From Duncaniella sp. (lineage in GTDB: Bacteria > Bacteroidota > Bacteroidia > Bacteroidales > Muribaculaceae), in the NCBI GenBank assembly GCA_029056055.1, contig JAIDCC010000100.1, forward strand, positions 1 to 33,268: a stretch of DNA of 33,268 bases. The letters run 5' to 3'. Under the pieces are notes generated by a model. That model saw nothing but the letters and a program-made list of their open reading frames with translations. It did no database searches and was not told the origin of the DNA. Shown in pieces: positions 7,523-29,123 of this stretch (position 1 is its first letter; every line of letters starts with the position of its first letter). Made by a program: the position numbers and the translations under genes.

Positions 7523-7728
7523 AGAAGTTGTTTAAACTTTTTTACGGTGAAATAAAATTCATTAAGGTAGAAGTTGAAAACGACCTCTTTTCGGGTCTTT
7601 CATCATCTTTTTGGCTGATTTTCCACCTCTCATCGGTCGTGTAGCTCGCTACACTCCCTCTTCGATGTGGAAAATCATCTCAAAAATCTGATAAAATCTC
7701 CGAAAAGAAAAAAGTTTAAACAACTTCT
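7523..7728 (-). repeat. Nested-palindrome element, type B, between two divergent promoters
   Basis: Outer arms carry AGAAGTTGTTTAAAC (from 7523) and its complement ending near 7728. A second left-arm candidate starts at 7569, with CTTTTCGG (7587-7594) facing CCGAAAAG (7700-7707). Inside are a perfect 10-bp stem (7617-7626 with 7667-7676) and an apical hairpin GTGTAGC/GCTACAC (7639-7654). On the minus strand it shares TTTTTGAGATGATTT, TAGCGAGCTA and CCAAAAAGA with the type A elements. Bases 7524-7554 are identical to the solo repeat at 22685-22715. It separates the divergent promoters at 7472-7479 and 7751-7758. Confidence 0.85.
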
Positions 7729-7750
7729 TTGCGGTTTACGTGATAATTAC

Positions 7751-7758
7751 TATCTTTG
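7751..7758 (+). promoter_or_regulatory. Promoter of sufE
   Basis: TATCTTTG is an exact -7 element, giving a leader of about 35 bases before the ATG at 7799. Confidence 0.7.
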
Positions 7759-7798
7759 TAGCTTACAAGACACGCCTAACCGGGTCTTGGCTCAATCA

Positions 7799-8233
7799 AT
7801 GACAATAGACCAGCAACAAGACGAAATCATAGAAGACTTCGCGGGACTCGACGACTGGATGGACCGCTACGGACTCATCATCGACCTTGGCAATCAGCTT
7901 CCCGCAATCGACGAGAAATATCGCACCCCCGAGCACCTCATCGAAGGGTGTCAGAGCCGCGTATGGCTCGGCGCCGAACTAACCGACGAGGGAAAAGTGC
8001 ACTTCACGGCCGACTCTGACGCCATCATCGTGAAAGGCATCATCTCGCTCCTCATCAAAGCACTCGACAACCAGACACCCGACGACATCCTCGACACGCC
8101 GCTGCGCTTCATCGACGAAATCGGACTGAGCGAACACCTCTCGCCGACGCGTTCGAACGGCCTTCTGGCTATGGTGAAGCAGATGCGCCTCTACGCTACC
8201 GCCTTCAAGGCACGTCAGGACGCCGCGAAATAA
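7799..8233 (+). CDS. sufE: SufE family cysteine-desulfurase sulfur acceptor
   Basis: A 144-residue cytoplasmic protein. The start at 7799 is chosen because the frame upstream lies in the repeat and before the promoter. The block LIEGCQSRVWLG places the sulfur-accepting cysteine at residue 51, the same number as in E. coli SufE. SufE takes persulfide sulfur from the desulfurase SufS and passes it to the SufBCD scaffold for Fe-S cluster assembly. No other suf gene is beside it; dnaX follows after about 50 bases without a terminator, so the two are probably co-transcribed. Confidence 0.92.
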   Translation: MTIDQQQDEIIEDFAGLDDWMDRYGLIIDLGNQLPAIDEKYRTPEHLIEGCQSRVWLGAELTDEGKVHFTADSDAIIVKGIISLLIKALDNQTPDDILDTPLRFIDEIGLSEHLSPTRSNGLLAMVKQMRLYATAFKARQDAAK

Positions 8234-8284
8234 GTCAGTCACCCCCTCACTCTCTCCTCAGACAACCTCCATCTTTTAACCCTA

Positions 8285-10132
8285 ATGGACCACTATCTCG
8301 TATCGGCACGCAAGTATCGCCCGTCGACGTTTGCCAGTGTGGTGGGGCAGAAAGCCCTGACAGCCACTCTGAAAAACGCCATCGCCACGGGACGCCTCGC
8401 CCACAGCTACCTCTTCTGCGGGTCGCGAGGCGTAGGCAAGACATCGTGTGCGCGCATCTTCTCGAAGACCATCAACTGTCTCAACCCCACGCCCGACGGC
8501 GAAGCCTGCAACGAGTGTGAATCGTGCCGGGCGTTCAACGAGGGCAATTCGCTCAACATCATAGAGCTTGACGCGGCATCGAACAACAGTGTCGAAGATA
8601 TCCGCGAGCTGACCCGTCAGGTGCTCATACCGCCGTCGACGGGGCGCTACCGCGTTTTTATCGTCGATGAGGTGCACATGCTTTCGGCTGCGGCCTTCAA
8701 CGCCTTTCTCAAGACCCTCGAGGAGCCGCCGGCCTACGTGATTTTCATTCTGGCCACGACCGAGAAGCAGAAAATCCTGCCCACCATCCTGTCGCGCTGC
8801 CAAATCTACGACTTCAAGCGCATCACGGTGCGCGACATGGTAGACCATCTTAGCTACGTGGCCTCGCAGGAGGGAATACAGGCCGAACCTGCGGCACTGG
8901 GCGTGATAGCCCGCAAGGCCGACGGCGCCATGCGCGACGCGCTGAGCATCTTCGACCAGGTGGCGGCATCGTCGCGCGGCAACATTACGTTTCAAAGCAC
9001 GATAGACAACCTCAACGTGCTCGACTACCGCTACTACAACCGCCTGCTGGAATGTTTTCTCGGCGGCAAGGTGCTCGACACGTGGATGATTTATAAAGAA
9101 ATCCGCGACCACGGCTTCGACTCGCACTTCTTCCTGAACGGACTGGCCGACCACCTGCGCGACCTCATGGTGGCGCGCGACCCGTCGACGATAACACTTC
9201 TCGAGACCGACGACGAGGCACGCCGGCAGATGGCAGAGACAGCCGTGAAGCTCCATCCGGAATTTCTGCTGCGGGCCATGGCACTCTGCAACGACGCCGA
9301 CCTGCATTGGCGCGACGCAGCCAACAAGCAATTTCTCGTAGAGCTGACGCTCGCAAAAATATGCCAATTATGCAGCCCCTCGCCCAATGACAGACAGGGC
9401 GCCGACGGCGGGGGGCAGACACTGAAACCTATCGACGCCCCGCGCACCACCGGCCAGCCCGCCCCGGCTCAACCTGCGGCAGCGGCTCAACCCGCGGCGC
9501 AGCGTCAGACACAGGCCGCTGCCGCACCTGCCGCAACCGCACCCGGGCCTCAGGCAACGGCTCAGGCCGCGCCTCAAGCGCGTCAGGCTGCCCCGGCAGC
9601 CACACAGCCTCGCCCGGCTGCGACGGCAGCGGCCGCACAGCCTCAGCGCCCCGCGCGCACGTCGCTGCGCCCCAACGGCCTCTCGACATTCTCGCTCAAA
9701 AACAAGCCGACCGGCGACGGAGGGCAGATGACCGCCGCCGACCCCGCGGCCACCTATGTCAAGACGAAGCGCACTCAGAGCTACACGCCCCAGGCACTCC
9801 AAACCGCATGGCAGAAATTCATGGATGCCAACAGGCAGAAACATATCCTCATCAACACCATGCGCGCCTGCGCGCCCCACAGCGTCGGCGAGCACGACTA
9901 TGTCATCACCGTAGAAAACGAGGTGCAACAGTCGGAGCTTCACACGGCCATGCCGGAGCTGCTGCGCCATCTGCACGACTCGCTGCAAAACGATGAGATA
10001 CGCCTGACGGTGACAATCAATGACGGCGACCCCGCGCCCCACACGTGGAACGAGCGCCAGGTGCTCAACCACATGGTGGAAAACTCAGCCGAGGTAGGCG
10101 AACTCATCTCGACACTCGGTCTGACGCTCTGA
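8285..10132 (+). CDS. dnaX: DNA polymerase III subunit gamma/tau
   Basis: A 615-residue protein. It has Walker A GSRGVGKT at residues 46-53, zinc-binding Cys65/75/78/81, Walker B FIVDEVHML at about 125-133, and the SRC arginine-finger motif near 170-172. These define the AAA+ clamp-loader ATPase that loads the sliding clamp at the replication fork. Residues about 385-465 form a low-complexity Ala/Gln/Pro linker, followed by a C-terminal domain (from about 500) corresponding to tau. I see no obvious slippery site for a short gamma form. The low-complexity linker also produces long spurious open frames on the other strand. Confidence 0.96.
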   Translation: MDHYLVSARKYRPSTFASVVGQKALTATLKNAIATGRLAHSYLFCGSRGVGKTSCARIFSKTINCLNPTPDGEACNECESCRAFNEGNSLNIIELDAASNNSVEDIRELTRQVLIPPSTGRYRVFIVDEVHMLSAAAFNAFLKTLEEPPAYVIFILATTEKQKILPTILSRCQIYDFKRITVRDMVDHLSYVASQEGIQAEPAALGVIARKADGAMRDALSIFDQVAASSRGNITFQSTIDNLNVLDYRYYNRLLECFLGGKVLDTWMIYKEIRDHGFDSHFFLNGLADHLRDLMVARDPSTITLLETDDEARRQMAETAVKLHPEFLLRAMALCNDADLHWRDAANKQFLVELTLAKICQLCSPSPNDRQGADGGGQTLKPIDAPRTTGQPAPAQPAAAAQPAAQRQTQAAAAPAATAPGPQATAQAAPQARQAAPAATQPRPAATAAAAQPQRPARTSLRPNGLSTFSLKNKPTGDGGQMTAADPAATYVKTKRTQSYTPQALQTAWQKFMDANRQKHILINTMRACAPHSVGEHDYVITVENEVQQSELHTAMPELLRHLHDSLQNDEIRLTVTINDGDPAPHTWNERQVLNHMVENSAEVGELISTLGLTL

Positions 10133-10177
10133 CCTACATACAATAACACAATAACAGCGGCGAAAATACGTTATATC

Positions 10178-10215
10178 TACGGCCACGGCAGCATCAAAAG
10201 CCTGTCGTGGCCGTA
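10178..10215 (+). other. Stem-loop in the dnaX-lipoprotein gap
   Basis: TACGGCCACGGCAG (10178-10191) pairs with CTGTCGTGGCCGTA (10202-10215) over 14 positions, with one G-U. No T tract follows, and the next start codon is 10 bases on. It may be an mRNA processing or translation-control hairpin rather than a terminator. Confidence 0.6.
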
Positions 10216-10225
10216 ACTCCAGCCT

Positions 10226-11614
10226 ATGAAAACACTCTTCTCTATCATAATCATCATCGCGGCGGCACTGCTGACGGCTTCGTGCATCGAGGACGGATAT
10301 GCCACTTCAGCCGACGCTCAGCCGAAATTTTCGACCGACACGCTCAAGATGGGACTTTCATTCACCGAACAGCCCACTCCGACGAGCCGTTTCACCGTGC
10401 ACAACCGCAATAACAAAATCCTCTCGATAAGCCACATCGCCCTGCGCTCGGGGGCTGAATCGGCGTTCCGCATCAACGTCGACGGCTCGGCGGGCGAAAG
10501 TTTCAGCGACATCGAAATCCGCCCCAACGACTCGATTTACATCTTTGTGGAGGCCACGCTTCCGGCCACCGGCTCGGGAGAGGCCCGCGCGTTTACCGAC
10601 CATATCGACTTTCTCACCAACGGCGTGAGCAGTTCGGTGGTGGTGCGCGCCGACGGCTGCGACGTGAAGCGCGTCAAGGGCTACACGGTGAGCAGCGACG
10701 AAGTGTGGAAGCCGGGGATGATGTATCAGGTGTTTGACTCGCTCGTGGTGGCACCGGGCGCCACCCTCACGCTCGACCCCGGAGTGACGCTCTGCTTTCA
10801 TGCGGGCGCCTACATGAAGGTGGATGGGACGCTGATTGCCGAGGGCACCGCCGAGGCGCCCGTAGAAATGCGCGGCGACCGCACCGACAACGTGCTCACC
10901 GACATTTCTTTCGACCTCATGGCCTCGCAATGGACGGGTCTCGCGTTCGGGCCCGAGAGCCGCGGCAACCGTCTGCGCCACGCCAACATCCGCAACACCG
11001 AGTATGGCATCAGGGCCTACGAGGATGCGGAAGTGGAATTTATCAACTGCCGTCTGCGCAATTCGGCCTCGTACGTTCTCACCGGCAGTCACGCGAAGCT
11101 GCGCATCATCGGCACAGAGGTGGCCGAGGCGGCATCGGGCCTGCTGGCGCTCATCGGCGGCGAAGCATACGTCTCGCAGTCGACCTTCGCCAACTACTAT
11201 CTCTTCGCAGCCATCCGCGGGGCGGCCATCCAGCTGACTCACTTTTCGCCCGACACGGCCGACCCCGAGAGCGACCGCCCCTTCCTGAAGGCAGATTTCT
11301 CGAATTCTATAGTCTACGGCCTCGGCACCGACCTCAATGCCGGCGACTTCGAAGGCACCGACATCTATTTCCGCAACTGCGTGCTAAAGAGCACGGGCGA
11401 GGACGACGACCATTTCATTTCGATACTCTGGGACACCGACCCTCTCTATGGCACCGTGCGCGAGGACTACCTCTTCGACTACCGCCTGAAGCCTGAATCG
11501 GCGGCGCGCACATGGGCCGACCCCGCGCTCATCCCCGCTGAAGCCGTAACCGACCCCTACGGCGAGAAGCGCACCACTGTGGCCGGAGCCTACGAACAGC
11601 CACTCCCCCTGTGA
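10226..11614 (+). CDS. Lipoprotein with a parallel beta-helix domain
   Basis: A 462-residue lipoprotein. The signal peptide ends in the lipobox LTASC, with the lipidated Cys at residue 20, followed by acidic residues (IEDGY) that favour surface export in Bacteroidetes. Residues about 45-130 look like an immunoglobulin-like beta domain (FTVHNRNNKILSISHI). From about 150 on there is a beta-helix pattern (LTLDPGVTLCFHAGAYMKVDGTLIAEGTAEAPVEM). The family is known to me only as uncharacterised Bacteroidales proteins; no enzyme activity is assigned. Its stop codon overlaps the start of the next gene (TGATG), so translation is likely coupled. Confidence 0.82.
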   Translation: MKTLFSIIIIIAAALLTASCIEDGYATSADAQPKFSTDTLKMGLSFTEQPTPTSRFTVHNRNNKILSISHIALRSGAESAFRINVDGSAGESFSDIEIRPNDSIYIFVEATLPATGSGEARAFTDHIDFLTNGVSSSVVVRADGCDVKRVKGYTVSSDEVWKPGMMYQVFDSLVVAPGATLTLDPGVTLCFHAGAYMKVDGTLIAEGTAEAPVEMRGDRTDNVLTDISFDLMASQWTGLAFGPESRGNRLRHANIRNTEYGIRAYEDAEVEFINCRLRNSASYVLTGSHAKLRIIGTEVAEAASGLLALIGGEAYVSQSTFANYYLFAAIRGAAIQLTHFSPDTADPESDRPFLKADFSNSIVYGLGTDLNAGDFEGTDIYFRNCVLKSTGEDDDHFISILWDTDPLYGTVREDYLFDYRLKPESAARTWADPALIPAEAVTDPYGEKRTTVAGAYEQPLPL

Positions 11615-12345
11615 TGCAGCCTACTGACTTGCTTATCCTCGCGGCCATCGCGGCCATGCTGTTTTTCGGCATCAGCCTCGTGGCCATTCTGCTGGTCGGC
11701 ATCAGGCGACTGCGCCGACGCCACCGCCGCAGCCGGCTGCTGCGCAAAGTGTCGGCGCCCGACCGCGGGGAGCCTCTCGAACGCGAGCTCGCGGTAAATC
11801 TTCTCGAGGCAGGGGTTCACCCGGCGACACTCTTCCACGACCTTTACGTAGATTTGGGGCGCGACCGCTATTCGCAGGTCGACCTCGTAGCCCTCACCCC
11901 GCGGGGCATCATCGTCATCGAGGTGAAAGACTACGGCGGAGGCATTTTCGGAAAAGGCGACGACACCGAGTGGGTGAAGACGCTCGCCTACGGGAATGAA
12001 AAACACACATTCTACAACCCAGTGATGCAGAACGCCGGCCACATCAGGGCTCTACGCAACACGCTGCGTCAGGCCGCCCCGGAGGCGCGTTTCATCTCGG
12101 TGATAGTGTTTTCGGGACGCGCCACACTCCACCGCTTCGACCGTCTGCCACCCGACACATTCGTGTGCTACGACGCGGAACTCCCCGCCCTCGTCGAGAA
12201 GATTGCCCACTCCGGCCCCAAGTGCCGTTACGCCGACAAGAAGGGCGTTGTCGCCGCGCTGCGGCGAGCGGCGGCAAACGGAGCAGACCCCGCCGTAGTG
12301 GCGCTCCACGCGCGCAACATCGCCGCACTTCATCCCCGCGACTGA
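11614..12345 (+). CDS. Membrane-anchored NERD-domain protein
   Basis: A 243-residue protein. The start is the ATG at 11614, which overlaps the upstream stop by one base; a GTG at 11611 is less likely. A single N-terminal membrane helix (about residues 6-29) is followed by an Arg-rich stop-transfer segment (RRLRRRHRRSR). Then comes a NERD (nuclease-related) domain at about 50-175 with QVDLVALTPRGIIVIEVKDY, whose D and E-x-K residues match the nuclease core. Whether it cuts DNA is unknown. A long terminator stem follows. Confidence 0.85.
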   Translation: MQPTDLLILAAIAAMLFFGISLVAILLVGIRRLRRRHRRSRLLRKVSAPDRGEPLERELAVNLLEAGVHPATLFHDLYVDLGRDRYSQVDLVALTPRGIIVIEVKDYGGGIFGKGDDTEWVKTLAYGNEKHTFYNPVMQNAGHIRALRNTLRQAAPEARFISVIVFSGRATLHRFDRLPPDTFVCYDAELPALVEKIAHSGPKCRYADKKGVVAALRRAAANGADPAVVALHARNIAALHPRD

Positions 12346-12372
12346 CCGCAACCTGACGCATAGACACAACGC

Positions 12373-12414
12373 ACACAGGGCCGCATGGTAAGACTATACC
12401 ATGCGGCCCTGTGT
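12373..12414. terminator. Bidirectional terminator between convergent NERD and DUF4834 genes
   Basis: An 18-bp perfect stem (12373-12390 with 12397-12414) has a 6-base loop. Downstream on the plus side comes a T-rich stretch (GTTATTTTAT). The two genes it separates converge on it. Confidence 0.85.
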
Positions 12415-12444
12415 GTTATTTTATACGATGTGGTGTGTTCGCGG

Positions 12445-12795
12445 TCAGATTTCTTCCCATTCGGCATCCGACACCTGCGGTTCGGAGGGAGAGGAGGAAG
12501 GCGGAACGTAGGTAGAGGACGCCGTGGTCTGCGTCACGGAAATTTCTTCAAACTCGATGTATTCGCCTTCGTCGCGCGAGAAGATTTTCCTGCCGCGGCG
12601 GCGTGTGGCCTCCTGCTCGCGGCGCGCTTCGTCATAACGGCGGCGTGCCTCGCGTGCATTCGGCATACCGAACTGCTGCGCAAACATGTCTTGCACTCGC
12701 TCAGACATCTTGCGCGCCAGATAGCGGCGCACGAAGGGCATGACGACGAGCCAGCCCAAATAGACCACGAGTATGGTGACTATGAGTGTTATCAT
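12445..12795 (-). CDS. DUF4834 family small membrane protein
   Basis: A 116-residue protein. One N-terminal membrane helix (about residues 2-22) is followed by a charged Arg/Glu-rich helix (residues 24-68) and an acidic, Ser/Pro-rich tail ending DAEWEEI. This matches DUF4834, a Bacteroidetes family of unknown function often found beside phosphatidylserine pathway genes. It lies 59 bases downstream of pssA on the same strand and probably ends the psd-pssA operon. A link to phospholipid synthesis is inferred from position only. Confidence 0.8.
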   Translation of the reverse strand: MITLIVTILVVYLGWLVVMPFVRRYLARKMSERVQDMFAQQFGMPNAREARRRYDEARREQEATRRRGRKIFSRDEGEYIEFEEISVTQTTASSTYVPPSSSPSEPQVSDAEWEEI

Positions 12796-12854
12796 TCAGG
12801 TTGAGCTAAAGGTGGAGAGGAAAGGGAGGATGGAGAGGGGAACGTGAGCAGTCC

Positions 12855-13580
12855 TCACTCTTGCGAGGCATTCTCTTTGAGGCGGTCGTTGCTGCGGCCG
12901 AAAATCGAGAGAATGATATAGAAAATGATGGTCCACGCAAATCCGGCCACTCCGGAAGTGGCCACAAACAGGGCGGCGGCGAGGAGCAAGCCGTAGCGAC
13001 GCACGTTTTCGTGCCAGCCGTAGGTCTTGAATTTCAGCGAGAACATGGGAATCTCGCTCACCATGAGCCACGAGAAGAGCAGAATCAGAGCGAGCATCAC
13101 CCAGTAGCCGGGGAAGCCGTGGGCATCAATCCACGCGAGGCAACCCACCCAGAAGATGGCATTGGCGGGGATGGGGAGACCTATGAACGAGGTTGTCTGA
13201 CGGGTGTCGACGTTAAACTTGGCCAGACGCAACGCCCCTGCCACGGCAATGATGAGAGCCGTCAGACAGAGCCCGCGGGCCACGCCGTAGGACGTGAGGG
13301 TGTTGAGCACGAGAAAGGCGGGGGCGAGGCCGAAGCTGACGAGGTCGCTGAGCGAGTCGAGCTCCTTGCCCATGTCGGAATAGGCCTTGAGAAGTCGCGC
13401 CGTGAAGCCGTCGAGAAAGTCGAAGACGGCGGCCGCGCCTATTGCTATAAACGCCCATTGCCTCGGCGTGAGACCTGCGGCAGTCGGGAACGTCTGAAAC
13501 GAAAGCCAGACGGCCACTGCGCCTGAAATCAGGTTGAGGCAGGTTATGGTGTTGGGGAGATAAACTTTACACGATTTCAT
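12855..13580 (-). CDS. pssA: CDP-diacylglycerol-serine O-phosphatidyltransferase
   Basis: A 241-residue inner-membrane enzyme that joins CDP-diacylglycerol and serine to give phosphatidylserine. The start MKSCKVYLPNTITCLNL at 13580 matches the family; the open frame upstream looks non-coding. The CDP-alcohol phosphatidyltransferase signature is complete: DFLDGFTARLLKAYSDMGKE followed by LDSLSD, that is D-x2-DG-x2-AR-x8-G-x3-D-x3-D. Several hydrophobic segments follow. psd lies 105 bases upstream; together they make phosphatidylethanolamine. Confidence 0.95.
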   Translation of the reverse strand: MKSCKVYLPNTITCLNLISGAVAVWLSFQTFPTAAGLTPRQWAFIAIGAAAVFDFLDGFTARLLKAYSDMGKELDSLSDLVSFGLAPAFLVLNTLTSYGVARGLCLTALIIAVAGALRLAKFNVDTRQTTSFIGLPIPANAIFWVGCLAWIDAHGFPGYWVMLALILLFSWLMVSEIPMFSLKFKTYGWHENVRRYGLLLAAALFVATSGVAGFAWTIIFYIILSIFGRSNDRLKENASQE

Positions 13581-13684
13581 AGAATGATGGAGTAGGGCCG
13601 CGGGCAGACACACACTACACGCAAGGCTGCGCGGGAGGCTTGCGGGCGCGACCGTTGAGGGGGAGAGGAGAGATAGAAGCAAAC

Positions 13685-14359: not shown

Positions 14360-14474
14360 GTAATAGCGGTTAGAGGTAAGACCGGAGGGGGTGTTGACGC
14401 CGCAACTCCGGCAGGCTCGTCGGCTCTCGCAAGCATCTGCGGCAGAAAACTGCACATAGCTGCTTACTGAAGTG

Positions 14475-14482
14475 CAAAATTA
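14475..14482 (-). promoter_or_regulatory. Promoter of the psd-pssA-DUF4834 operon
   Basis: Minus-strand TAATTTTG is an exact -7 element. It gives a leader of about 110 bases before psd. Confidence 0.6.
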
Positions 14483-15466: not shown

Positions 15467-15500
15467 CTTCACCCGCCCTACCCGTCATTGCCAAAAAACA

Positions 15501-15533: not shown

Positions 15534-15571
15534 GAAATATTTTGTCTTATCGGAGCGTGGGGAGAAGCGGA

Positions 15572-16364: not shown

Positions 16365-18839
16365 TTATCGGAGCTCTGCCTGAAGTTTCTTTGTAAGGTT
16401 GGCGATGATTTTCTGCATCACGGCGTCAATCTGCTTGTCCTGGAGGGTCTTCTCGTCGTCTTGCAGGGTGACTGAGATGGCATAGCTCTTCTTGCCGGCG
16501 GGGAGGTTGGAGCCTTCGTAGACGTCGAAGAGGGTCACGTCGCGCAGCAGCTTGCGCTCGCTTTCGCGCACCACGGCTTCCACCTGGCCGAACGAGACGG
16601 CCGCGTCGAGCAGCAGCGCCAGGTCGCGCTTCACGCCCTGCGTCTTGGGCAGCGGGGCTAAGGTCACGTTGCGCTTGATGGCCATGTCTACGAGGGCGTC
16701 CCAGCAGAGTTCGGCATAGTAGACCTCCTGCTTGACGTCGGCCTTGGCGGCCACCTTGCGGCTGAGGATGCCGAGCGTGCCGAGAGGTTTGCCCGAACGG
16801 GTGGTGATGTCGAGACCGGCCGAATAGAGCGCCGAATCTGAAGGCGCCAGCTTGATTTCCGACGGATTGAGGCCGAGACGGGCGAAGATGTTGGCCACCA
16901 CGGCGCGAAGGTCGTAGACCGTGGCCTGTGCCTCGGGGCGCACCCACGATGCGGGGCGCAGACGGCCCGTCATCCAGATGGCCAGGTGCGATGCCTGCGA
17001 GTAGGGGGCGAGGATGGCTTCCTGTGTCGAGGCCACGTCGGGACGGAAGGTGTAGACGTTGCCAAACTCATACATCATCAGGTCGGCTTCCTTGCGGTTG
17101 ATGTTGTGGGCAAGGCTTTCAAGACCGCCGAAGAGGAGGGTCTGGCGCATCACGTTGAGGTCGTTGCTCAGGGGGTTGAGCAGGCGCACGCAGTTTTCGG
17201 CCGGATAGGGGGCGAAGTCGGTGTAGTAGGCCTCGGCCGTGAGCGAGTTGTTGAGGATTTCGTTGAAGCCTTCGCCGCAAAGCTGCTCCGAGATGAGCGA
17301 GCGCAGGCGGTTGTCTTCGTCGGCATGGCTCTTTGTGGTGAGGGCCGAATGGAGGGTCTCCGAGATTTCCACGTTGTTGTAGCCGTAGATGCGGAGCAGG
17401 TCTTCCACCACGTCGCACGGACGGGTGACGTCGACGCGATAGGTGGGCACGCGCATCTTCACGGCTTTCTCGCTCACTTCGGTGATTTCCATTTCGAGGC
17501 TGCGCAGGATGTCTACCGTGGTGTCTGCACCGATTTTCTTGCCGATGAGGCGGTCGGTGTAGTCAAAGTCGAGGGTCACTTCCACCGGCTCGACCACTTT
17601 GGGGTAGATATCTGCCACGGGGCCGGTGATGGTGCCGCCGGCGAGTTCTTTCACCAAAAGTGCGGCAAGCTTGAGCACGTAGAGACAGCCGTTGGGGTCG
17701 ACGCCGCGCTCGAAGCGGAACGAGGAGTCGGTCGACAGGCCGTGACGGCGCGCGGTCTTTCTCACCGAGGTGGGGTTGAAGCATGCGCTTTCGAGGAAGA
17801 TGTCGGTGGTCTGCTCGGTGACGCCCGAGTCGAGACCGCCGAACACGCCGGCTATACACATAGGCTCGGCGACGTTGCATATCATCAGGTCGCGCGAGTC
17901 GAGGGTATGTTCCACGCCGTCGAGGGTCACGAACTTCTCTCCCTCGCGGGCGTTCTTCACCACAATCTTGCCGCCCGCTATCTTCGCGACGTCAAAACAG
18001 TGGAGCGGCTGGCCGAGCCCCATGAGCAGGAAGTTGGTGATGTCTACAATATTATTAATGGGGCGCAGACCCACGGCGTTGAGCAGGTCGCGGAGCCATT
18101 TGGGCGATTCCTTGACGGTGACCCCCTTGATGGTGACGCCGGTGTAGCGGGTGCAAGCCTCGGGGTTTTCCACTTCCACGGCTATGCCTCCCTCGGCTTC
18201 GTCAAGCGCGAAGGCTTCCGTGCCGGGACGATGGAGCGTGCCGGCTCCCGGTTCGTCGTGGCGGAGCATCCAGGCGTTGAGGTCGCGGGCCACTCCGTAG
18301 TGCGAAGCGGCGTCGATGCGGTTGGGGGTGAGGTCTACCTCGAGCACGTAGTCCGACGTCAGCCCGTAGTATTCGGCGGCGGGAGTGCCGGGGGCGGCGG
18401 CGCCATCTTCAAGCACTATGATGCCGTCGTGCGACGTGCCGATGCCTATTTCGTCTTCGGCGCAAATCATGCCGAAGCTTTCCACGCCGCGGATTTTCGA
18501 CTTCTTGATTTTAAATTCCTTGTCGCCGTCATAGAGAGTGGTGCCTACGGTGGCCACGACTACCGTCTGACCGGCCGCCACATTGGGCGCGCCACACACT
18601 ATCTGCACTGCTTCTTCCTGACCGAGGTCTACGGTCGTGATGTGAAGGTGGTCGGAGTCGGGGTGCTCGACGCATGTGAGTACCTTACCGATGACGATGC
18701 CTTTCAGGCCGCCGCGGATGCTCTCCACCTCTTCTACCGACCCTGTCTCAAGGCCTATCGACGTGAGGGCCTCTGCGAGACGTTCGGCAGTCAGCTCTAT
18801 GTTGATGTATCTTTTGAGCCAATTATATGATATATTCAT
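16365..18839 (-). CDS. pheT: Phenylalanine-tRNA ligase beta subunit
   Basis: An 824-residue cytoplasmic subunit, close to the usual 790-830. The start MNISYNWLKRYINIELTAERL at 18839 is the conserved N-terminus. Domains in order: EMAP-like tRNA-binding domain (about 40-155), B3/B4 editing domain (about 210-390), B5 (about 405-475), a degenerate synthetase-like core, and the C-terminal anticodon-binding FDX-ACB domain (about 730-824, ending QKIIANLTKKLQAELR). With PheS it charges tRNA-Phe; pheS is not in the window. A promoter lies about 22 bases upstream and yebC follows. Confidence 0.97.
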   Translation of the reverse strand: MNISYNWLKRYINIELTAERLAEALTSIGLETGSVEEVESIRGGLKGIVIGKVLTCVEHPDSDHLHITTVDLGQEEAVQIVCGAPNVAAGQTVVVATVGTTLYDGDKEFKIKKSKIRGVESFGMICAEDEIGIGTSHDGIIVLEDGAAAPGTPAAEYYGLTSDYVLEVDLTPNRIDAASHYGVARDLNAWMLRHDEPGAGTLHRPGTEAFALDEAEGGIAVEVENPEACTRYTGVTIKGVTVKESPKWLRDLLNAVGLRPINNIVDITNFLLMGLGQPLHCFDVAKIAGGKIVVKNAREGEKFVTLDGVEHTLDSRDLMICNVAEPMCIAGVFGGLDSGVTEQTTDIFLESACFNPTSVRKTARRHGLSTDSSFRFERGVDPNGCLYVLKLAALLVKELAGGTITGPVADIYPKVVEPVEVTLDFDYTDRLIGKKIGADTTVDILRSLEMEITEVSEKAVKMRVPTYRVDVTRPCDVVEDLLRIYGYNNVEISETLHSALTTKSHADEDNRLRSLISEQLCGEGFNEILNNSLTAEAYYTDFAPYPAENCVRLLNPLSNDLNVMRQTLLFGGLESLAHNINRKEADLMMYEFGNVYTFRPDVASTQEAILAPYSQASHLAIWMTGRLRPASWVRPEAQATVYDLRAVVANIFARLGLNPSEIKLAPSDSALYSAGLDITTRSGKPLGTLGILSRKVAAKADVKQEVYYAELCWDALVDMAIKRNVTLAPLPKTQGVKRDLALLLDAAVSFGQVEAVVRESERKLLRDVTLFDVYEGSNLPAGKKSYAISVTLQDDEKTLQDKQIDAVMQKIIANLTKKLQAELR

Positions 18840-22149: not shown

Positions 22150-22212
22150 AGTTGTAATAGTTTTAAAAATTAAGTATTTGTTATTTATTGAATTATGTTA
22201 CCTGTTCTTGTT

Positions 22213-22512: not shown

Positions 22513-22540
22513 TGCTGTTTCGTGTTTGAGGTTTACACTG

Positions 22541-22548
22541 CAAAATTA
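22541..22548 (-). promoter_or_regulatory. Promoter of the capsid-like operon
   Basis: Minus-strand TAATTTTG is an exact -7 element, giving a leader of about 23 bases. Confidence 0.65.
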
Positions 22549-22656
22549 CTGCCGCCGGAGGCCCTCGATAGTGCGATTATGACGAAACGCGCATCAAAAA
22601 CATCATTTTTTTCGCCCGCACCCCCTCGCGCCGCCCCAACTATCGAAAAATTTCAC

Positions 22657-22664
22657 TACCTTTG
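22657..22664 (+). promoter_or_regulatory. Promoter of the SGNH esterase gene
   Basis: TACCTTTG is an exact -7 element, giving a leader of about 67 bases that contains the repeat at 22685-22715. Confidence 0.65.
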
Positions 22665-22684
22665 CGAAATACAACCCATATTTC

Positions 22685-22715
22685 TATTTCACCGTAAAAA
22701 AGTTTAAACAACTTC
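22685..22715 (+). repeat. Solo type B terminal repeat in the esterase leader
   Basis: These 31 bases, including AAAAAAGTTTAAACAACTTC, are identical to the complement of 7524-7554 at the type B element. The rest of that element is absent here. Confidence 0.85.
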
Positions 22716-22736
22716 ATATTTCCCCTTACCTTTCGG

Positions 22737-23816
22737 ATGAAACTCATCTATTCGCTCGCCTTGACGGCCTCTCTCCTCGCTTCAGCCACCTCTTGCCGCG
22801 ACAATTCGCCGGTCGAGGTCGGCGCCGACTCTCCCTACATCCACTACATGGGACGCCTCGACCGCACCAACCCCGCCGAGCCCGCATTCTCCTTCCCGGG
22901 CACTACGGCCATGCTTTCGTTCGAGGCCGACTCCGTGGCCATGCACGTCTCGCCCGGAAGCGGCTACTTCGTGGTCGAAATCGACTCGCTCGCCCCGCAG
23001 AAGGTGTGCTTCGACCCCACCGACTCGGTGATGACCCTCGGACGCGACCTCGGCGAAGGCCTCCACAACCTCCGCGTCACCTACTGCATCGAAGGCTACG
23101 AGAAGTCGCCCCGCTGGCGTGGCTTCACGCTCAGCCCCGGCGCCAAACTCCACGAACCCGCGGTGCCCCAAGGCCCGAAAATCGAATTCATCGGCAATTC
23201 CATCACCTGCGGCTACGGCACCGATGCCGAAGGTCCCGAAATTCATTTCAGCTACGACACCGAAAACCATTGTCTGAGCTACGCCCACCAGACCGCCCGA
23301 CTGCTCGATGCCGACTACTACGTCGTGGCGCGCTCGGGCAGCGGCATCTATCGCAACTACAACGGCCCGCGCGAGGGGTCGCCCGACGGCACCATTCCAT
23401 CCGAGTATGACAACACGCTCATCTATTGCCCCGACGTCAAGTGGGACTTCTCCACTTGGCAGCCCGACGTGGTGTGCATCAATCTCGGCACCAACGACAC
23501 GTCGCTCGGCAATTACGACATCGCTCTCTTCGGCGAACGCTACGGCGAGTTTCTCTCTCATCTGCGCAGCGTCTACCCCGACGCGAAATTCGTGCTCCTC
23601 ACCGGTTCTATGCTCCACGGCAAAGCCCTCGACGATGTGCGTCACACTCTCGACTCGCTCGCTGCCTCCCGCCCCGGAGTGATGCGCTTCGATATGTCTG
23701 AAGAGACGGGCGAACTCGGCTACGGCGCCGACTATCACCCCTCGCCCCGACGCGCTGCCCTCAACGCCGTCGAACTCTCGCAATTCATTGCCAACGAGGT
23801 GCTCCCCTCCAACTAA
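22737..23816 (+). CDS. SGNH/GDSL acetylesterase lipoprotein, carbohydrate esterase family 2-like
   Basis: A 359-residue protein. The signal peptide ends in SATSC, with the lipidated Cys at residue 20, followed by RDNSP. Residues about 30-135 form a jelly-roll-like domain, and about 148-359 the SGNH hydrolase. Block I is FIGNSITCGYG with nucleophile Ser155; block III is NLGTNDTS; block V is ADYHPSPRR with the catalytic His. This two-domain layout is typical of CE2 enzymes that remove acetyl groups from xylan or other plant glycans. It likely acts at the cell surface or in the periplasm. The last codons and stop lie in a 30-bp unit that is repeated directly downstream. Confidence 0.88.
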   Translation: MKLIYSLALTASLLASATSCRDNSPVEVGADSPYIHYMGRLDRTNPAEPAFSFPGTTAMLSFEADSVAMHVSPGSGYFVVEIDSLAPQKVCFDPTDSVMTLGRDLGEGLHNLRVTYCIEGYEKSPRWRGFTLSPGAKLHEPAVPQGPKIEFIGNSITCGYGTDAEGPEIHFSYDTENHCLSYAHQTARLLDADYYVVARSGSGIYRNYNGPREGSPDGTIPSEYDNTLIYCPDVKWDFSTWQPDVVCINLGTNDTSLGNYDIALFGERYGEFLSHLRSVYPDAKFVLLTGSMLHGKALDDVRHTLDSLAASRPGVMRFDMSEETGELGYGADYHPSPRRAALNAVELSQFIANEVLPSN

Positions 23817-23854
23817 CCGTCATTCGAGGTGCTCCCCTCCAAATAACCGTTCTC
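23795..23854 (+). repeat. 30-bp tandem duplication across the esterase stop codon
   Basis: Two adjacent units (23795-23824 and about 23825-23854) share CGAGGTGCTCCCCTCCAA and TAACCGT. The first contains the real stop codon, so the second is untranslated. Confidence 0.85.
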
Positions 23855-23866
23855 ATTACTATACAT

Positions 23867-24030
23867 AAGTAAGTCTTGCAAATTAGTTTATATCAAAGCT
23901 GAGATTTGATGTGAATGTAGTTTCGACTTACGACGAAGGCGTATAGCCGTAGCTCTATAACTGAGGAGCAAGTCGGAAATGCGTCACAGCAAATTCTGAT
24001 TTGATATAAACTAATTTTCAAGACTTACTT
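23867..24030 (+). repeat. Nested-palindrome element, type C, adjoining metH
   Basis: 31-bp terminal inverted repeats (23867-23897 and 24000-24030) start AAGTAAGTCTTG and differ at one position. Inside are nested stems (ATTTG/CAAAT; TTTCGACTT/AAGTCGGAAA) and an apical TATAG/CTATA hairpin. The layout matches types A and B although the sequence differs. The right end lies 6 bases before the metH start. No obvious target-site duplication and no coding capacity are seen. Confidence 0.85.
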
Positions 24031-24036
24031 AGCTTA

Positions 24037-27000
24037 ATGTCATTTCTCGAAGCCCTGCGCTCGCGCATTCTTCTGCTCGACGGTGCCACAGGCACCATGA
24101 TTCAACAGGCGCGCCTCGCCGAAAGCCATTTCCGCGGAGCGCGTTTCGCGGCGTGGCCCAAGCCGTTGCTCGGCTGCAACGATGTCCTCGCGCTCACCGA
24201 GCCTAAGGTCATAGCCCGGATAGCCCGCCAATACATCGACGCCGGCGCCGACATCATTTCTACCGACACTTTCAACGCCAATGCCATTTCGCTCAGCGCC
24301 TACGGCCTCGAAGACGCGGCGGCCGAAATCAATCTCGCCGCTGCCCGCATTGCCCGCGAGGCGGCCGACGCTGCCCCGCGCAAGGTCTGGGTGGCCGGCT
24401 CGATTGGCCCCACCGACAAGACCGCTTCCATGAGCCCTGACGTCGACGACCCCGGTGCGCGCGCCGTCAGCTATGCCCAACTGCGCGATTCCTACGCCGT
24501 CCAGATTGCCGCCCTCGCCGAGGGGGGTGTCGACCTGCTCCTCTTCGAGACCGTGTTCGACACCCTCAACCTCAAGGCCGGACTCGATGCCGCGGCGTCG
24601 TTCGGGCTCCCCGTCATGGTGTCGCTCACTCTCGCCGGCGGGGGCGCACGCACGTTCTCCGGCCAGACCATCGAGGCTTTCCTCGCGTCCGTCTCCCATT
24701 ACCCCATCGCCACCATCGGCCTCAACTGCTCGTTCGGTGCCACCGAAATGGCCGGGCCGCTGCGGCTGCTCTCGCGCATTGCTCCATGGCCCGTCAGCGT
24801 CCACCCCAACGCCGGTCTCCCCGATGCCATGGGTCGCTACGCCGACACGCCCGCGCGCATGGCTTCGCTCATAGGTGAGTTTGCCGCCGAGGGGCTTGTC
24901 AACATCGTCGGGGGCTGCTGCGGCACCACTCCCGCCCACATTGCCGAAATCCGCCGGGCCGTGGCTCCGTTCCCGCCCCGCGTCTGGCCCTCCGCCGAGC
25001 CGCGCCTGCGTCTTTCAGGCCTCGAGATGCTCGACGTCGATTCTAAGGATTTCACCGTCGTCGGCGAGCGCTGCAACGTGGCCGGCTCCCGCAAGTTCCT
25101 CCGCCTCATCAAGGAGGGCGCGCTCGGCGAGGCTCTCGCTATCGCCCGCCGGCAGGTGGAGCAGGGTGCCGACATCATCGACATCAACATGGACGACGGT
25201 CTCCTCGACTCCCGACGCGAAATGGCGCGCTTCCTCGACCTCCTCGCCGCCGAACCGGCCATTGCCCGCGTGCCGGTGATGATTGACTCCTCCGACCGCG
25301 AAACAATCTTCGAGGCGCTCGGCCATGTGCAGGGCAAACCTGTGGTCAATTCCATCTCGCTCAAGGAGGGTGAGACGCGCTTCCTCGAAGATGCCCGCAT
25401 GATTCGCCGCCGTGGCGCGGCGGTCGTCGTCATGGCCTTCGACGAAAAGGGGCAGGCCGACACTTTCGAGCGGAAGGTCGAGGTGTGCGCCCGCGCCTAC
25501 CGTCTCCTCACCGAGCAGGCCGGTTTCCCTCCCGAAGACATCATTTTCGACCCCAACATCCTTGCCGTGGCCACGGGCATCGAGGCCCACGACCGTTACG
25601 CGCTCGATTTCATCCGCGCCACAGAGTGGATTAAAACCAATCTCCCCCACGCCAAGGTGAGCGGCGGGGTCAGCAACCTCTCGTTTGCGTTCCGCGGCCA
25701 CAACTCCCTGCGCCGCGCCATGCACAGCGCGTTTCTCCACCACGCCCGACGCGCCGGAATGGACATGGCCATCATCGACCCCGCGTCGCTGGTGAGCTAC
25801 GACGAAATCCATTCCGATTTGCGCTCTCTCATCGACGACCTCCTGCTCTGCCGCCGCCCCGATGCCGCCGAGCGTCTCACGGCCTACGCCGCCGCCCACC
25901 CCGATGCCAAGGGGGCGCCGACCGCGCCGTCGGCCAAGGCTTCCGAGGCCGTGGCCGCTACCCCAGCGCAGCGTCTCGCCGAGGCTATGGTCAGCGGTAT
26001 CGACGATTCGCTGGACGCTGACATCTCCGCCCTGCTCGAAAGCGGCCTCCCGGCGGTCGACATCATTTCCGGCCCGCTCATGGAGGGCATGAACCGTGTC
26101 GGGTCGCTCTTCGCCGAGGGTCGCATGTTTCTGCCGCAGGTGGTCAAGGCGGCCCGCACCATGAAGCGCGCGGTCGAAATCCTCCGTCCGGCTCTCGAAG
26201 CCTCGCGCGCTGCCGCCTCGTCTACGGCTGCCGGTCGCATCCTCATCGCCACTGTCAAGGGCGACGTCCACGACATCGGCAAAAACATCGTCGCCATAGT
26301 CATGGGTTGCAACAACTACGAGGTCACCGACCTGGGCGTGATGGTGCCCCCGGAGGCTATCGTCGAAGCGGCGCGTGCCTCCCGCCCCGACATCATCTGT
26401 CTCTCCGGTCTCATCACTCCGTCGCTCGACGAGATGGTGCGCACTGTCGCCGCTCTCGCCGAAGCGGGCATCGACACGCCTGTCATGGTCGGGGGCGCCA
26501 CCACTTCCGCTCTCCACACCGCGCTCAAGATTGCCCCGGCCACGACGGCTCCCGTAATCCATGCCGCCGATGCGGCTCAGAATCCGGTGCTCGCCGCCCG
26601 CCTTCTCGACCCCGCCTCGCGCGAGGAGTTTCTTTCCTCTCTGCGTGCCTCGCAGGAGCGTCTGCGCGGCGATTACCTCGCTTCTACCCTTCCTCCCTAC
26701 TCTCCCGACGAGGCGCGCCGCCGCCACGCGCCCTATGCCGCCGCGCCTGCTCCGCGCCCGCGCGCGATGGGTGTGACGGAGCTTTCCCCCGCCGTCGCCG
26801 ACGTGGTGCCGTTCATCAACTGGAAAATGTTTCTGCATGCCTGGCGCATGGCGGGGTCGCCCGACGCCGAACGCGCCTCGCTGCTCGACGATGCCCGCGC
26901 TCTCCTCGACTCGCGGCCCGACTGGTTCGACATCCGGTGCAAAACTCTGCTCGGCGAGGCGCGCGTCTGCCGCGACTCCGACACCGTCAGCTTCTTCGGC

Positions 27001-27474
27001 GCCGAGCTCCTTATGCCGCGCCGTCTCCGCGGAGGTTCCGACTCATGCCCCTCGCTGGCCGATTGGATTTACTGCGGCCCCGAGCCCGACTACATGGGTG
27101 CTTTCGCCGTAGCGGTCCACACCTCCGCGCCCGACGATGCCGACCCTTACACGTCGCTTCTCGTCAGCACGCTTGCCCATCGTCTTGCCGAAGCCGCGTC
27201 CGAATGGCTTCACGCCCGGGTGCGCACTTCGCTCTGGGGCTACGCGCCCGACGAGGCTCTCTCCGTGGCCGACCTCTTCGCCGGACGCTTCCGTGGCATC
27301 CGCCCCGCCGTAGGCTATCCCTCTCTCCCCGACCAGCGGCTCAATCTCCGTCTGGCCGAAGTGCTCCGCCCCGACACCATCGGCATCACTCTCACCGAAA
27401 ACGGAGCGATGCACCCCGACGCCTCTGTTGCGGGCCTCTACATCGCGGCGCCCGAGGCGCGCTACTTCGCCTGA
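24037..27474 (+). CDS. metH: Cobalamin-dependent methionine synthase
   Basis: A 1145-residue cytoplasmic enzyme, somewhat shorter than E. coli MetH. It has a homocysteine-binding domain (about 1-320) with zinc ligands Cys231, Cys294 and Cys295 (GGCCGTTP); a methyltetrahydrofolate domain (about 335-600, VGERCNVAGSRKFLRLI); a cap domain (about 645-735); a cobalamin domain (735-880) with DVHDIGKN, His745 as cobalt ligand, and SGLITPSLDEM; and a reactivation domain (about 925-1145) with RPAVGYPSLPDQRL. It moves a methyl group from methyltetrahydrofolate through cobalamin to homocysteine. No cobalamin riboswitch is seen; the leader is filled by the type C element. Its 3' end overlaps the convergent lipoprotein gene by 13 bases. 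Confidence 0.97.
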   Translation: MSFLEALRSRILLLDGATGTMIQQARLAESHFRGARFAAWPKPLLGCNDVLALTEPKVIARIARQYIDAGADIISTDTFNANAISLSAYGLEDAAAEINLAAARIAREAADAAPRKVWVAGSIGPTDKTASMSPDVDDPGARAVSYAQLRDSYAVQIAALAEGGVDLLLFETVFDTLNLKAGLDAAASFGLPVMVSLTLAGGGARTFSGQTIEAFLASVSHYPIATIGLNCSFGATEMAGPLRLLSRIAPWPVSVHPNAGLPDAMGRYADTPARMASLIGEFAAEGLVNIVGGCCGTTPAHIAEIRRAVAPFPPRVWPSAEPRLRLSGLEMLDVDSKDFTVVGERCNVAGSRKFLRLIKEGALGEALAIARRQVEQGADIIDINMDDGLLDSRREMARFLDLLAAEPAIARVPVMIDSSDRETIFEALGHVQGKPVVNSISLKEGETRFLEDARMIRRRGAAVVVMAFDEKGQADTFERKVEVCARAYRLLTEQAGFPPEDIIFDPNILAVATGIEAHDRYALDFIRATEWIKTNLPHAKVSGGVSNLSFAFRGHNSLRRAMHSAFLHHARRAGMDMAIIDPASLVSYDEIHSDLRSLIDDLLLCRRPDAAERLTAYAAAHPDAKGAPTAPSAKASEAVAATPAQRLAEAMVSGIDDSLDADISALLESGLPAVDIISGPLMEGMNRVGSLFAEGRMFLPQVVKAARTMKRAVEILRPALEASRAAASSTAAGRILIATVKGDVHDIGKNIVAIVMGCNNYEVTDLGVMVPPEAIVEAARASRPDIICLSGLITPSLDEMVRTVAALAEAGIDTPVMVGGATTSALHTALKIAPATTAPVIHAADAAQNPVLAARLLDPASREEFLSSLRASQERLRGDYLASTLPPYSPDEARRRHAPYAAAPAPRPRAMGVTELSPAVADVVPFINWKMFLHAWRMAGSPDAERASLLDDARALLDSRPDWFDIRCKTLLGEARVCRDSDTVSFFGAELLMPRRLRGGSDSCPSLADWIYCGPEPDYMGAFAVAVHTSAPDDADPYTSLLVSTLAHRLAEAASEWLHARVRTSLWGYAPDEALSVADLFAGRFRGIRPAVGYPSLPDQRLNLRLAEVLRPDTIGITLTENGAMHPDASVAGLYIAAPEARYFA

Positions 27475-28496
27475 CCCAACTTCTCCCTGACCATCTCGGC
27501 ACCCTCCTCCACGCTTTCGCCGCGATAGAGGATGGCTCCGGTCGAGTCGGTCACCAGGCAGTAGGGCACGCGAGGCACCTGAAGTCTGCGCAATGCCGCC
27601 GAGCTGACGCCTCCCGGCGCCCAGCCCTGAAGCCATGTGGCCGTGTCGCGCTTGATGTCGGTGCGCCACACGGCCGAATCGGCTTGCACGCCTGCTTCAA
27701 GTATCACGAGTCGCGATTTCGGAAATGAGTCGCGAAGGCTCCGCAACTCCCCGCGCACACGCGCGTCCTTTGGTCTGTCGGTCACCACAAGCAGTCCGTA
27801 GCTCTGCAATCCCGGCGTGAGCTGCGCGCGCTTCATCGAGTCGGCGCTCACGGGCATCGTAATGCCGCGCATCTCGGCGCGCGCGCCGGTGGTCAGCTGC
27901 GCCCCGAGCAGCATCGCCCATTGGCGGAACATGCCCTGCGGACGCGCTTCCGGCGTCAGAAGTCTCACAAGTGAGTCGGCCTCGAGCTCATGCCCTGCGG
28001 CATCAAACCGCGTCATCAGCAGAAACGCCGCCGCAAGCTCGCCGGGGTGCTCTTCCACCAGACGCGCCACCACTCTGTTGCGTGCCGCTCCCGCCGACAC
28101 GCTGTCGGCCTCGGCGGCCATCGCCACGTAGCGCTGCGCCGTCTTCCACCCCTTCAGTTCGAGCGACGCGGGCTGACCCAATGTCATGCGCGCCTCGATT
28201 TTCTCTCCGTTCTTCACCGGAAAGGCCGCCACTTCCTCGCCGCGCCCCGACAGGTAGAGTTCGGCGAGCGTCGGCTCGGCCGACACCCCCGTGAATTCCA
28301 CAATCTCCTTGGCGTCGGGGTGACCCGTCACGCGCTTCAACACTCCGCGCGCATCCGTGTAGACCATCTCCACGCCCTGACTGCCAAGTCCGGCGAGCCG
28401 ACACCTCACGGTGAAATTTTCCTTCTTGTCCGAGCATCCGCTCAGCAGCATCCCCGCAAGCGCGGTTATCACGATTATCAGTTTTTCTATTCTCAT
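27462..28496 (-). CDS. Thioredoxin-like lipoprotein lacking the CxxC motif
   Basis: A 344-residue lipoprotein starting at 28496 (MRIEKLIIVITALAG), with lipobox LLSGC and Cys21. The N-terminal part (about 28-125) resembles the beta-sandwich domain (DUF4369-like) that precedes TlpA-type thioredoxin domains in Bacteroidetes. The middle is helical. The C-terminal part (about 235-344) has a thioredoxin-like pattern with the cis-Pro segment VPRVPYCLVTDSTGAILYRG, but no CxxC where the active site belongs, so it is probably redox-inactive. Function unknown; a periplasmic binding or folding role is possible. Confidence 0.75.
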   Translation of the reverse strand: MRIEKLIIVITALAGMLLSGCSDKKENFTVRCRLAGLGSQGVEMVYTDARGVLKRVTGHPDAKEIVEFTGVSAEPTLAELYLSGRGEEVAAFPVKNGEKIEARMTLGQPASLELKGWKTAQRYVAMAAEADSVSAGAARNRVVARLVEEHPGELAAAFLLMTRFDAAGHELEADSLVRLLTPEARPQGMFRQWAMLLGAQLTTGARAEMRGITMPVSADSMKRAQLTPGLQSYGLLVVTDRPKDARVRGELRSLRDSFPKSRLVILEAGVQADSAVWRTDIKRDTATWLQGWAPGGVSSAALRRLQVPRVPYCLVTDSTGAILYRGESVEEGAEMVREKLGQAK

Positions 28497-28517
28497 CTTC
28501 TTTCTTTTGTTGCGCTG

Positions 28518-28525
28518 CAAAGTTA
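28518..28525 (-). promoter_or_regulatory. Promoter of the thioredoxin-like lipoprotein gene
   Basis: Minus-strand TAACTTTG is an exact -7 element, giving a leader of about 16 bases. Confidence 0.7.
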
Positions 28526-28659
28526 AACAAAACTTTCAAAACAAACATCATCGAATATGCTAAACTTGTCAAAGAACTCTCCGGCCCCACACCCGATGCC
28601 GCTTAGCCTATGAATATTTTTTCAACGGTCTATTGCTGAAAACTATTCACGTAATTTTT

Positions 28660-28842
28660 AAGTAAGTGCGAAAAATAAATGAACAGATAAAAGGAAGTTA
28701 TTTTTGAGATGATTTGGGGCTTGAGTGAAGAAGCATAGCGAGCTATGCGCCTGAACGAAAGGCCCAAAGCATCCAAAAAGAACGAGTTTTACTGTTCAAG
28801 AATTTTTCTTCGCATATATCGTTTTATTTTTAGAACTTACTT
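28660..28842 (+). repeat. Nested-palindrome element, type A, full copy 1
   Basis: 183 bases from AAGTAAGT to ACTTACTT. The outer arms also share an AAAAATAAA block. A middle stem pairs GATGATTTGGG with CCCAAAGCATC. The apical hairpin is GCATAGC-GA-GCTATGC (28733-28748). A side hairpin GAAC/GTTC sits in the right arm. The DNA between this copy and the lipoprotein promoter (28526-28659), and between the two copies (28843-28939), contains no gene I can support. Confidence 0.9.
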
Positions 28843-28939
28843 ATTATTTGAAAAAGTTGACTCTGTTAGCGGCTTAGACCCTACTGTACAACCTCAAATT
28901 TTACCGAACTATTGACTTAAAAGAACTGTTTTAAATGGT

Positions 28940-29123
28940 AAGTAAGTGAGAAAAATAAATGAATAAATAAAACGAAGTTATTTTTGAGATGATTTGAGAT
29001 TTGAGTGAAGGAGCATAGCCTCCCTATGCGACTGAACGAAAGGCTCAAAGCACCCAAAAAGAACAAGTTTTTTTGTTCAAGAATTTTTCATAACATTCAT
29101 CGTTTTATTTTTAGAGCTTACTT
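28940..29123 (+). repeat. Nested-palindrome element, type A, full copy 2
   Basis: 184 bases in the same orientation as copy 1 and about 97 bases beyond it. The middle stem reads TTTGAG/CTCAAA where copy 1 has TTTGGG/CCCAAA, so a base pair changed on both sides. The apical hairpin is GCATAG/CTATGC with a CCTCC loop. The right-arm hairpin is longer here (GAACAA/TTGTTC). Confidence 0.9.

Follow-up and report, generated by a model that had tools for sequence, protein, structure and literature searches.

A G.A-mismatch hairpin shared by putative miniature transposable elements with different ends in Duncaniella and other Bacteroidales

Repeat elements of the contig and their copies in the genome

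The stretch of DNA analyzed here, referred to below as the window, is the complete contig 3 (JAIDCC010000100.1; G000:C3:1-33268; 33,268 nucleotides) of the 2.88-Mb draft genome, in 129 contigs, of a Duncaniella sp. from the family Muribaculaceae. This genome carries the handle G000 in our collection; other genomes (G) and loci (L) are cited in the same manner. The window harbors several short repeats, probably miniature inverted-repeat transposable elements (MITEs), in which an imperfect hairpin of about 80 nucleotides with tandem G.A mismatches, hereafter the core, is set between ends of different types. A first-pass annotation of the window had pointed out four copies (1-77, 7523-7728, 28660-28842, and 28940-29123), all of which we found at precisely these positions; it overlooked a 164-base-pair (bp) element at 23867-24030 and the remnant of a type B end at 22682-22715. 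The repeat observation is real, and it is larger in extent than first noted. The features are as follows:

1-77, minus strand: type A element truncated by the contig end, with one end at 58-77 (0 mismatches) and a partial core at 1-36 (27.2 bits, cut at its 3' side)
7523-7728, minus strand: type B element of 206 bp with ends GAAGTTGTTTAAAC at 7524-7543 and 7708-7727; its G.A strand is the minus strand
7607-7686, minus strand: core hairpin (80 nucleotides) of the 7523 element (covariance-model match, 90.5 bits)
22682-22715, minus strand: remnant of a single type B end (97% over 34 bp), directly upstream of an open frame beginning at 22737
23867-24030, plus strand: further putative MITE of 164 bp with IS630-like terminal repeats, recognized by core search and end comparison
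23909-23990, plus strand: diverged core of the 164-bp element (26.1 bits, E 0.0014)
28660-28842, plus strand: type A element of 183 bp with ends at 28660-28679 and 28823-28842
28701-28780, plus strand: 80-nucleotide hairpin core of the 28660 element (102.5 bits), whose innermost mismatch site reads A.G, A.C instead of A.G, G.A
28940-29123, plus strand: type A element of 184 bp, with the left end at 28940-28959 and the right end extending to 29123
28981-29061, plus strand: 81-nucleotide hairpin core of the 28940 element (89.9 bits), with tandem G.A at three of three sites

The copy at 1-77 is incomplete because the contig stops within the repeat. Both the apical arms and the middle stems read as they had been described: the apical arms are GTGTAGC/GCTACAC in the type B element and GCATAGC/GCTATGC in the type A element at 28660, the copy at 28940 carries GCATAG/CTATGC with a longer loop, and the middle stem is TTTGGG/CCCAAA in one type A copy and TTTGAG/CTCAAA in the other. 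No reading frame of at least 90 amino acids lies wholly within any element of the window; a protein-coding core was considered and set aside, with no formal coding test applied.

A full count of the type A end pattern in the genome yielded 192 matches at up to two mismatches, none with the reversed pattern as a control, and these ends correspond to about 96 copies, which are dispersed and mostly intergenic. The type B end pattern matched 42 times at up to three mismatches (reversed-pattern control 0), representing about a dozen full copies. A covariance model of the core, built from 41 sequences, gave at least 128 matches in this genome at no fewer than 86 distinct places, 42 of the matches being opposite-strand echoes; these copy numbers are lower bounds obtained from the best 40 of 125 candidates by similarity and the best 150 of 1120 by the core model. 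When 27 genomes of the genus were compared, ends of type A with at most one mismatch numbered 171 here and zero to four in 25 others, while G012 carries 32 ends of a sister family of type A. One near-identical copy was found outside the genus: L139, in the first ~190 bases of contig C17 of G281, a genome of another genus, shares 99.5% identity across 182 bp with one of the copies in G000 and is cut by the contig end. Either the element has passed recently from one genus to another or the contig is a stray one.

Several copies depart from the common layout. The type A copies L076 and L077 contain, on reading, an insertion of ~34 bp next to the tip hairpin, and a similar insertion in L188 and L190 is indicated by longer model matches. 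The ends are near-intact and the hairpin is deleted in L068, L078, and L079, which comprise type A and G012 elements. Type A ends are combined with a type B-like tip in L058 of this genome. A separate palindromic element (L054/L059; G000:C69, ~16848-17007) with the ends AAGTATGTG...CACATACTT is inserted at TA in a type B remnant and shows, by eye, a TGAAG/TGAAG mismatch hairpin.

Folding, covariation, and tandem G.A mismatches of the core

The full copies of the window fold markedly better than shuffled sequences. Relative to shuffles, the z-score was -5.45 with DNA parameters for the 28940 copy, and -9.20, -5.07, and -7.59 with RNA parameters for the three full copies; in each of these four tests, 0 of 200 shuffles folded as well as the real copy. 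The first-pass annotation had taken the paired changes between copies as evidence for selection on a folded RNA or a cruciform, and the compensatory nature of these changes is borne out by an alignment of 41 cores (hand-picked from 47 references, with one recut and with duplicates and near-duplicates dropped). In this alignment, 92.5% of the cells pair, compared with 82.2% after shuffling. Doubly changed cells number 117 versus 41.8, a value reached in none of 500 shuffles, and the covariation score is 0.297 versus 0.127 for shuffled and at most 0.095 for slid alignments. Two further measures, the count of doubly changed pairs (13 versus 11.8 shuffled) and that of further pair types (35 versus 33.6 shuffled), were not clearly above the shuffles.

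Paired changes might also accumulate neutrally, through correction of one palindrome arm from the other during replication in combination with shared ancestry, so that no function would be needed. All copies are indeed quasi-palindromes in DNA, and our shuffle controls, those for covariation as well as the re-paired halves used below, ignore the relatedness among the copies. Arm correction would, however, convert mismatches into pairs, and the hallmark of the core is a set of two or three tandem G.A/A.G mismatches that persist, on just one of the strands, amid covarying pairs. We studied them in a wider set of cores collected with a pattern that covers positions p2 to p14, counted outward from the loop, in which 184 distinct 80-mers were reduced to 59 (<80% identical). 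The tandem A.G then G.A occupies p9/10 in 51 of the 59 cores and p13/14 in 55 of them, frequencies that are inflated since the detection pattern itself includes those sites. Outside the pattern, positions p16/17 or p17/18 hold a third tandem in 39 of the 59 cores, against 16.1 with re-paired halves and a maximum of 25 in 2000 re-pairings. Positions p6 and p7, left free in the pattern, pair in 98% versus 63% on re-pairing, and the pair at p12 alternates between A-T (41/59) and G-C (12/59). The core of G747, which the motif pattern misses (0/10) and which is excluded from the 59-core, gene-context, and end-type counts, again has, by reading, three tandem G.A steps, at another spacing. The ten G747 copies share at least 98.5% identity, a sign of a recent burst. 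Given mismatches retained in this manner, which argue against mere palindrome repair, we regard a purely neutral origin of the paired changes as quite unlikely.

The hairpin is strand-specific in its folding potential: in 57 of the 59 cores, the G.A strand forms the more stable fold of the two strands, the mean RNA folding energies being -30.2 kcal/mol for this strand and -20.7 kcal/mol for the complement. Together with the covariation in the 41 cores, this could speak for an RNA element that is transcribed from the G.A strand, folds, and controls the neighboring mRNA, with selection keeping the stems. Roles of this kind, proposed for RNase III sites in Correia/NEMIS elements and an RNase E site in ERIC, are reported in a review (PMC2229807). 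Covariation cannot separate RNA from DNA, however, and DNA parameters give the same strand preference (57/59), so that RNA is not favored by it. Rfam offers no relevant match either. At the gathering threshold there was none in the window, and at E<=1 eleven loci returned only a tRNA and a sub-threshold hit to 5_ureB_sRNA (RF02514). The latter (L155:1816-1975; 28.5 bits, gathering threshold 40) lies ~240 bases from the core of that locus and is probably due to chance.

The position of the cores relative to genes bears on the same question. For this comparison, genes were predicted by a crude codon-usage method; the places compared include one or more false motif hits (L031 at 1376), and 19 of them have a missing neighbor. 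Across all end types, 203 of 212 core places lie outside predicted genes and 9 inside a predicted open reading frame; the corresponding number inside frames is 7 of 78 in this genome. Spaces between divergent genes hold 45 core places and those between convergent genes 13, a contrast perhaps due to the greater length of promoter spaces. Where the neighboring genes are in tandem, the G.A strand has sense orientation in 64 cases and antisense orientation in 62 (p 0.93). A role in read-through mRNA should, by expectation, bias the orientation; as there is no such bias, we infer that a role at the DNA level, in the spread of the MITEs, is favored. Hence, of the earlier proposal, selection on a folded structure fits the compensatory changes and the retained mismatches, the lack of orientation bias weighs against its mRNA variant, and a regulatory RNA function of the core is in our view unlikely.

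Ends, target sites, and distribution of the core

Both type A left ends of the window are identical at 25 of 30 positions to the IS630 end of L101, and the right ends match the correctly anchored ends of L101, L102, and L104 at 18-23 of 30. The terminal repeats of the 164-bp element are alike at 29 of 30 positions and agree at 26 and 27 of 30 with the right end of the IS630 of G113 (L090). DDE_3 is the catalytic domain of IS630-type transposases, and it was recognized by Pfam in all three full frames scanned (L090, L095, and L101; E 1.4e-25 to 1e-30). In these frames of 357-362 codons the DDE_3 match starts only at residue 192-197, and the N-terminal half matches no Pfam family; the genes are perhaps frameshifted. 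The assembly of G004 breaks off, at four contig ends, within an element that opens with a type A-like terminus and a reading frame. The tail of this frame found matches at E<=1, many of them weak, in 39 of 297 genomes, and two very short end-peptides of this insertion sequence had no Pfam match. The first-pass annotation had put forward a MITE-like element moved in trans, and the IS630-like ends, the target duplications of relatives described below, and the lack of a reading frame of 90 or more amino acids wholly inside the elements all agree with it. Type A and the 164-bp element are, to judge from their termini, likely IS630-derived MITEs.

As expected for insertion at TA, type A-like copies have a T before and an A after the element in 96 of 119 cases. 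To look for empty sites, the flanks of 119 elements were joined and compared with other loci. An alignment running through the junction was obtained for a single one, the type A copy L028, which is nested in the remnant of a type B element and whose joined flanks resemble a second such remnant (78% over 64 columns); two further matches fell within the locus of the element itself. For the other end types, direct target duplications were compared with 2000 re-pairings of the flanks. End type E has a 4-bp duplication in 23 of 32 cases (re-paired mean 3.95, maximum 11) and is the only type clearly exceeding all re-pairings. Duplications of 3 bp occur in 9 of 10 G747 copies (mean 4.64, maximum 9), in 6 of 6 elements of type C (mean 3.02, maximum 6), and in 7 of 17 of type B (mean 1.74, maximum 7). 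The type B duplication words are AAT, TTA, TTT, TAA, ATC, and TGA; some groups of the IS5 family, considered as a candidate source of type B, produce 3-bp TNA duplications. The type B ends were probably served by another transposase class.

The core is widespread within the family and the order. In the family, 233 of 397 sampled genomes, from 21 of 30 genera, have a match to its model at E<=0.01; the best 11 candidates per genome were scored, so that copy numbers in this survey are lower bounds. In a phylum-wide sample, 2 of 395 genomes match at E<=1e-4, namely G000 and, likewise from the Bacteroidales, G747; only six of the genomes listed in that survey, G000 included, belong to this order. 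A pattern scan of GTDB returned at least 118 stretches, and all of the 80 titles examined are Bacteroidales except for one mislabeled record: 'Paenibacillus sp. NALB_7961_12' shares exact DNA with the Bacteroidales genome G012 (L217, L220, and L248). Among the matches listed are Prevotella bivia, P. disiens, P. corporis, P. ihumii, Hoylesella timonensis, H. buccalis, Alloprevotella, and Candidatus Colimorpha; the last was checked to be of this order, to which Prevotella, Hoylesella, and Alloprevotella also belong. Three contigs of a viral collection also carry the core, and a plasmid search gave two core-only matches in Prevotella nigrescens.

When 207 core places were compared with seven end types, 16 matched none, 7 matched two, and the rest one, some of them on one side only. 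Cores can be alike across end types (71/80 between C and G, 67/80 between C and D) and as low as 26/80 within type A. Types C, F, and G have similar ends and are possibly related; the ends of A, D, and E have no mutual resemblance by eye. Bystander elements located by their ends alone contain the motif in five of seven cases, and the model matches the remaining two (L236 and L242). Conversely, 11 of 12 IS630 loci tested with the core model are without a core, and in the twelfth, L090, the core lies outside the insertion sequence. In two IS630 loci outside that test, L094 and L105, a core detected by the pattern likewise lies outside the insertion-sequence match. Collectively, these comparisons show, at the sequence level, one core module joined to seven kinds of end across the Bacteroidales, and they extend, beyond the evidence available in the window, the earlier suggestion that ends and core are exchangeable. 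Decayed remnants of one known insertion sequence were considered as the alternative source of the repeats; this pattern was not observed, and remnants of a single insertion sequence were set aside in view of the several families and the ten highly similar G747 copies. As a separate observation, the D/F-type elements L275, L271, L281, L231, and L090 contain two cores in opposite orientation.

Known repeat families and the proposed role of the hairpin

Several known systems are comparable. One of them is RUP of Streptococcus pneumoniae, a 107-bp repeat with 108 reported copies and IS630-Spn1-like ends (PMC2229807, PMC3049150). Both RUP and the type A elements described here are high-copy, short, intergenic, non-coding repeats with IS630-like ends and TA at the termini; by analogy, the pairing of type A with IS630 is taken to work like that of RUP with IS630-Spn1 and of other MITEs. 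In contrast to our elements, no internal module common to MITEs of other transposase classes is described for RUP in the text consulted. Correia/NEMIS and ERIC are likewise short MITEs with TA at their termini whose transcripts fold (PMC2229807); they are reported to act on adjacent mRNA, whereas our elements have no orientation bias toward tandem genes. Within the Bacteroidales, Porphyromonas gingivalis has the MITEs BrickBuilt, MITE293/MITE239, and MITE464/PgRS, and the BrickBuilt ends resemble IS5-family ends (PMC4596501). BrickBuilt and 464/PgRS, compared by description only, contain tandem direct repeats, and the consulted text of that report mentions no G.A hairpin. Our literature search, which left subscription journals mostly outside, found no description of this hairpin or of a Muribaculaceae MITE family.

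Repetitive extragenic palindromic (REP) sequences, with their GTAG/CGTC tags and their associated RAYT transposases, are imperfect hairpins in many copies as well, and CGTC repeats without a dedicated transposase are reported in Bacteroidetes (PMC3733652). REPs are 20-40 bp long with a terminal tag, whereas here the hairpin lies inside elements of ~160-390 bp, several types of which have target duplications. A free-standing REP palindrome does not fit, as the hairpin lies within longer elements with their own ends. The core could still be an additional and older signal for mobility: a hairpin in single-stranded DNA that a Y1/HUH enzyme recognizes, as RAYT does REP sequences, and that resides inside DDE-type MITEs. 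Its imperfect, strand-specific hairpin would suit such an enzyme, and the opposite-oriented double cores of some D/F-type elements are reminiscent of paired REPs. The cores sit, however, within elements with DDE-type ends and target duplications, and we hold this possibility to be very unlikely.

We therefore favor, with reasonable confidence, the explanation that the repeats are MITEs moved in trans by transposases of insertion sequences and that they share one G.A hairpin module acting at the DNA level. Short non-coding elements would be cut and pasted by the transposases of full insertion sequences acting on their ends. The hairpin would fold on one strand when the DNA is single-stranded, for instance during lagging-strand replication, and might then unite the two ends or bind a host factor and in this way improve the spread of the MITEs that contain it. 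The mismatches may serve to hold the palindrome imperfect, which is a guess. The function of the module as a DNA-level cassette aiding MITE spread is one that we infer.

Several observations weigh against this explanation. Read on the G.A strand, the flanks show a negative GC skew in 117 cases out of 201 and a positive one in 84 (p 0.024, uncorrected); this weak replication-strand bias by local GC skew is not built upon. The innermost mismatch site is A.C rather than G.A in 16 of the 41 cores, all of type A. The TA flanks of type A match as often after re-pairing (103/133 versus 102.0) and may belong to the terminal repeat itself; because T and A are nearly invariant, re-pairing is unable to separate the two possibilities. 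For type B, type C, and G747, the best of the re-pairings equaled the observed number of duplications. No DDE_3 transposase match was found in the draft assembly of G000, nor in 25 of the 26 other genomes of the genus (one of 27 positive overall). Absence from a draft means little, because G004, though bearing IS630 ends, also has no DDE_3 match, the body of its element being unassembled; moreover, an in-genome transposase is not required of a relict MITE. Finally, no parent insertion sequence for end types B to G is present among the collected loci, and searches in viral contigs (three end patterns), plasmids, and phages found none. For type B there was no exact end in the viral contigs and no similar plasmid, whole genomes not having been searched for a parent.

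The occurrence of the same hairpin in otherwise unrelated MITE families suggests, as far as sequence comparison reaches, a shared function. More tentatively, the G.A hairpin might be an independent functional cassette that passes between Bacteroidales MITEs belonging to three or more transposase classes and that would raise their spread or survival through a strand-specific structure in single-stranded DNA or a bound host factor, whichever transposase cuts. The covariance model of the core provides a searchable motif, and the G.A sites alone present a clear target for point mutations. Bacterial MITEs are usually pictured as a pair of ends with mere filler in between; an inner sequence conserved in structure across an order of bacteria from gut and mouth, between unrelated ends with different duplication lengths, would mean that MITEs can possess a functional inner part.

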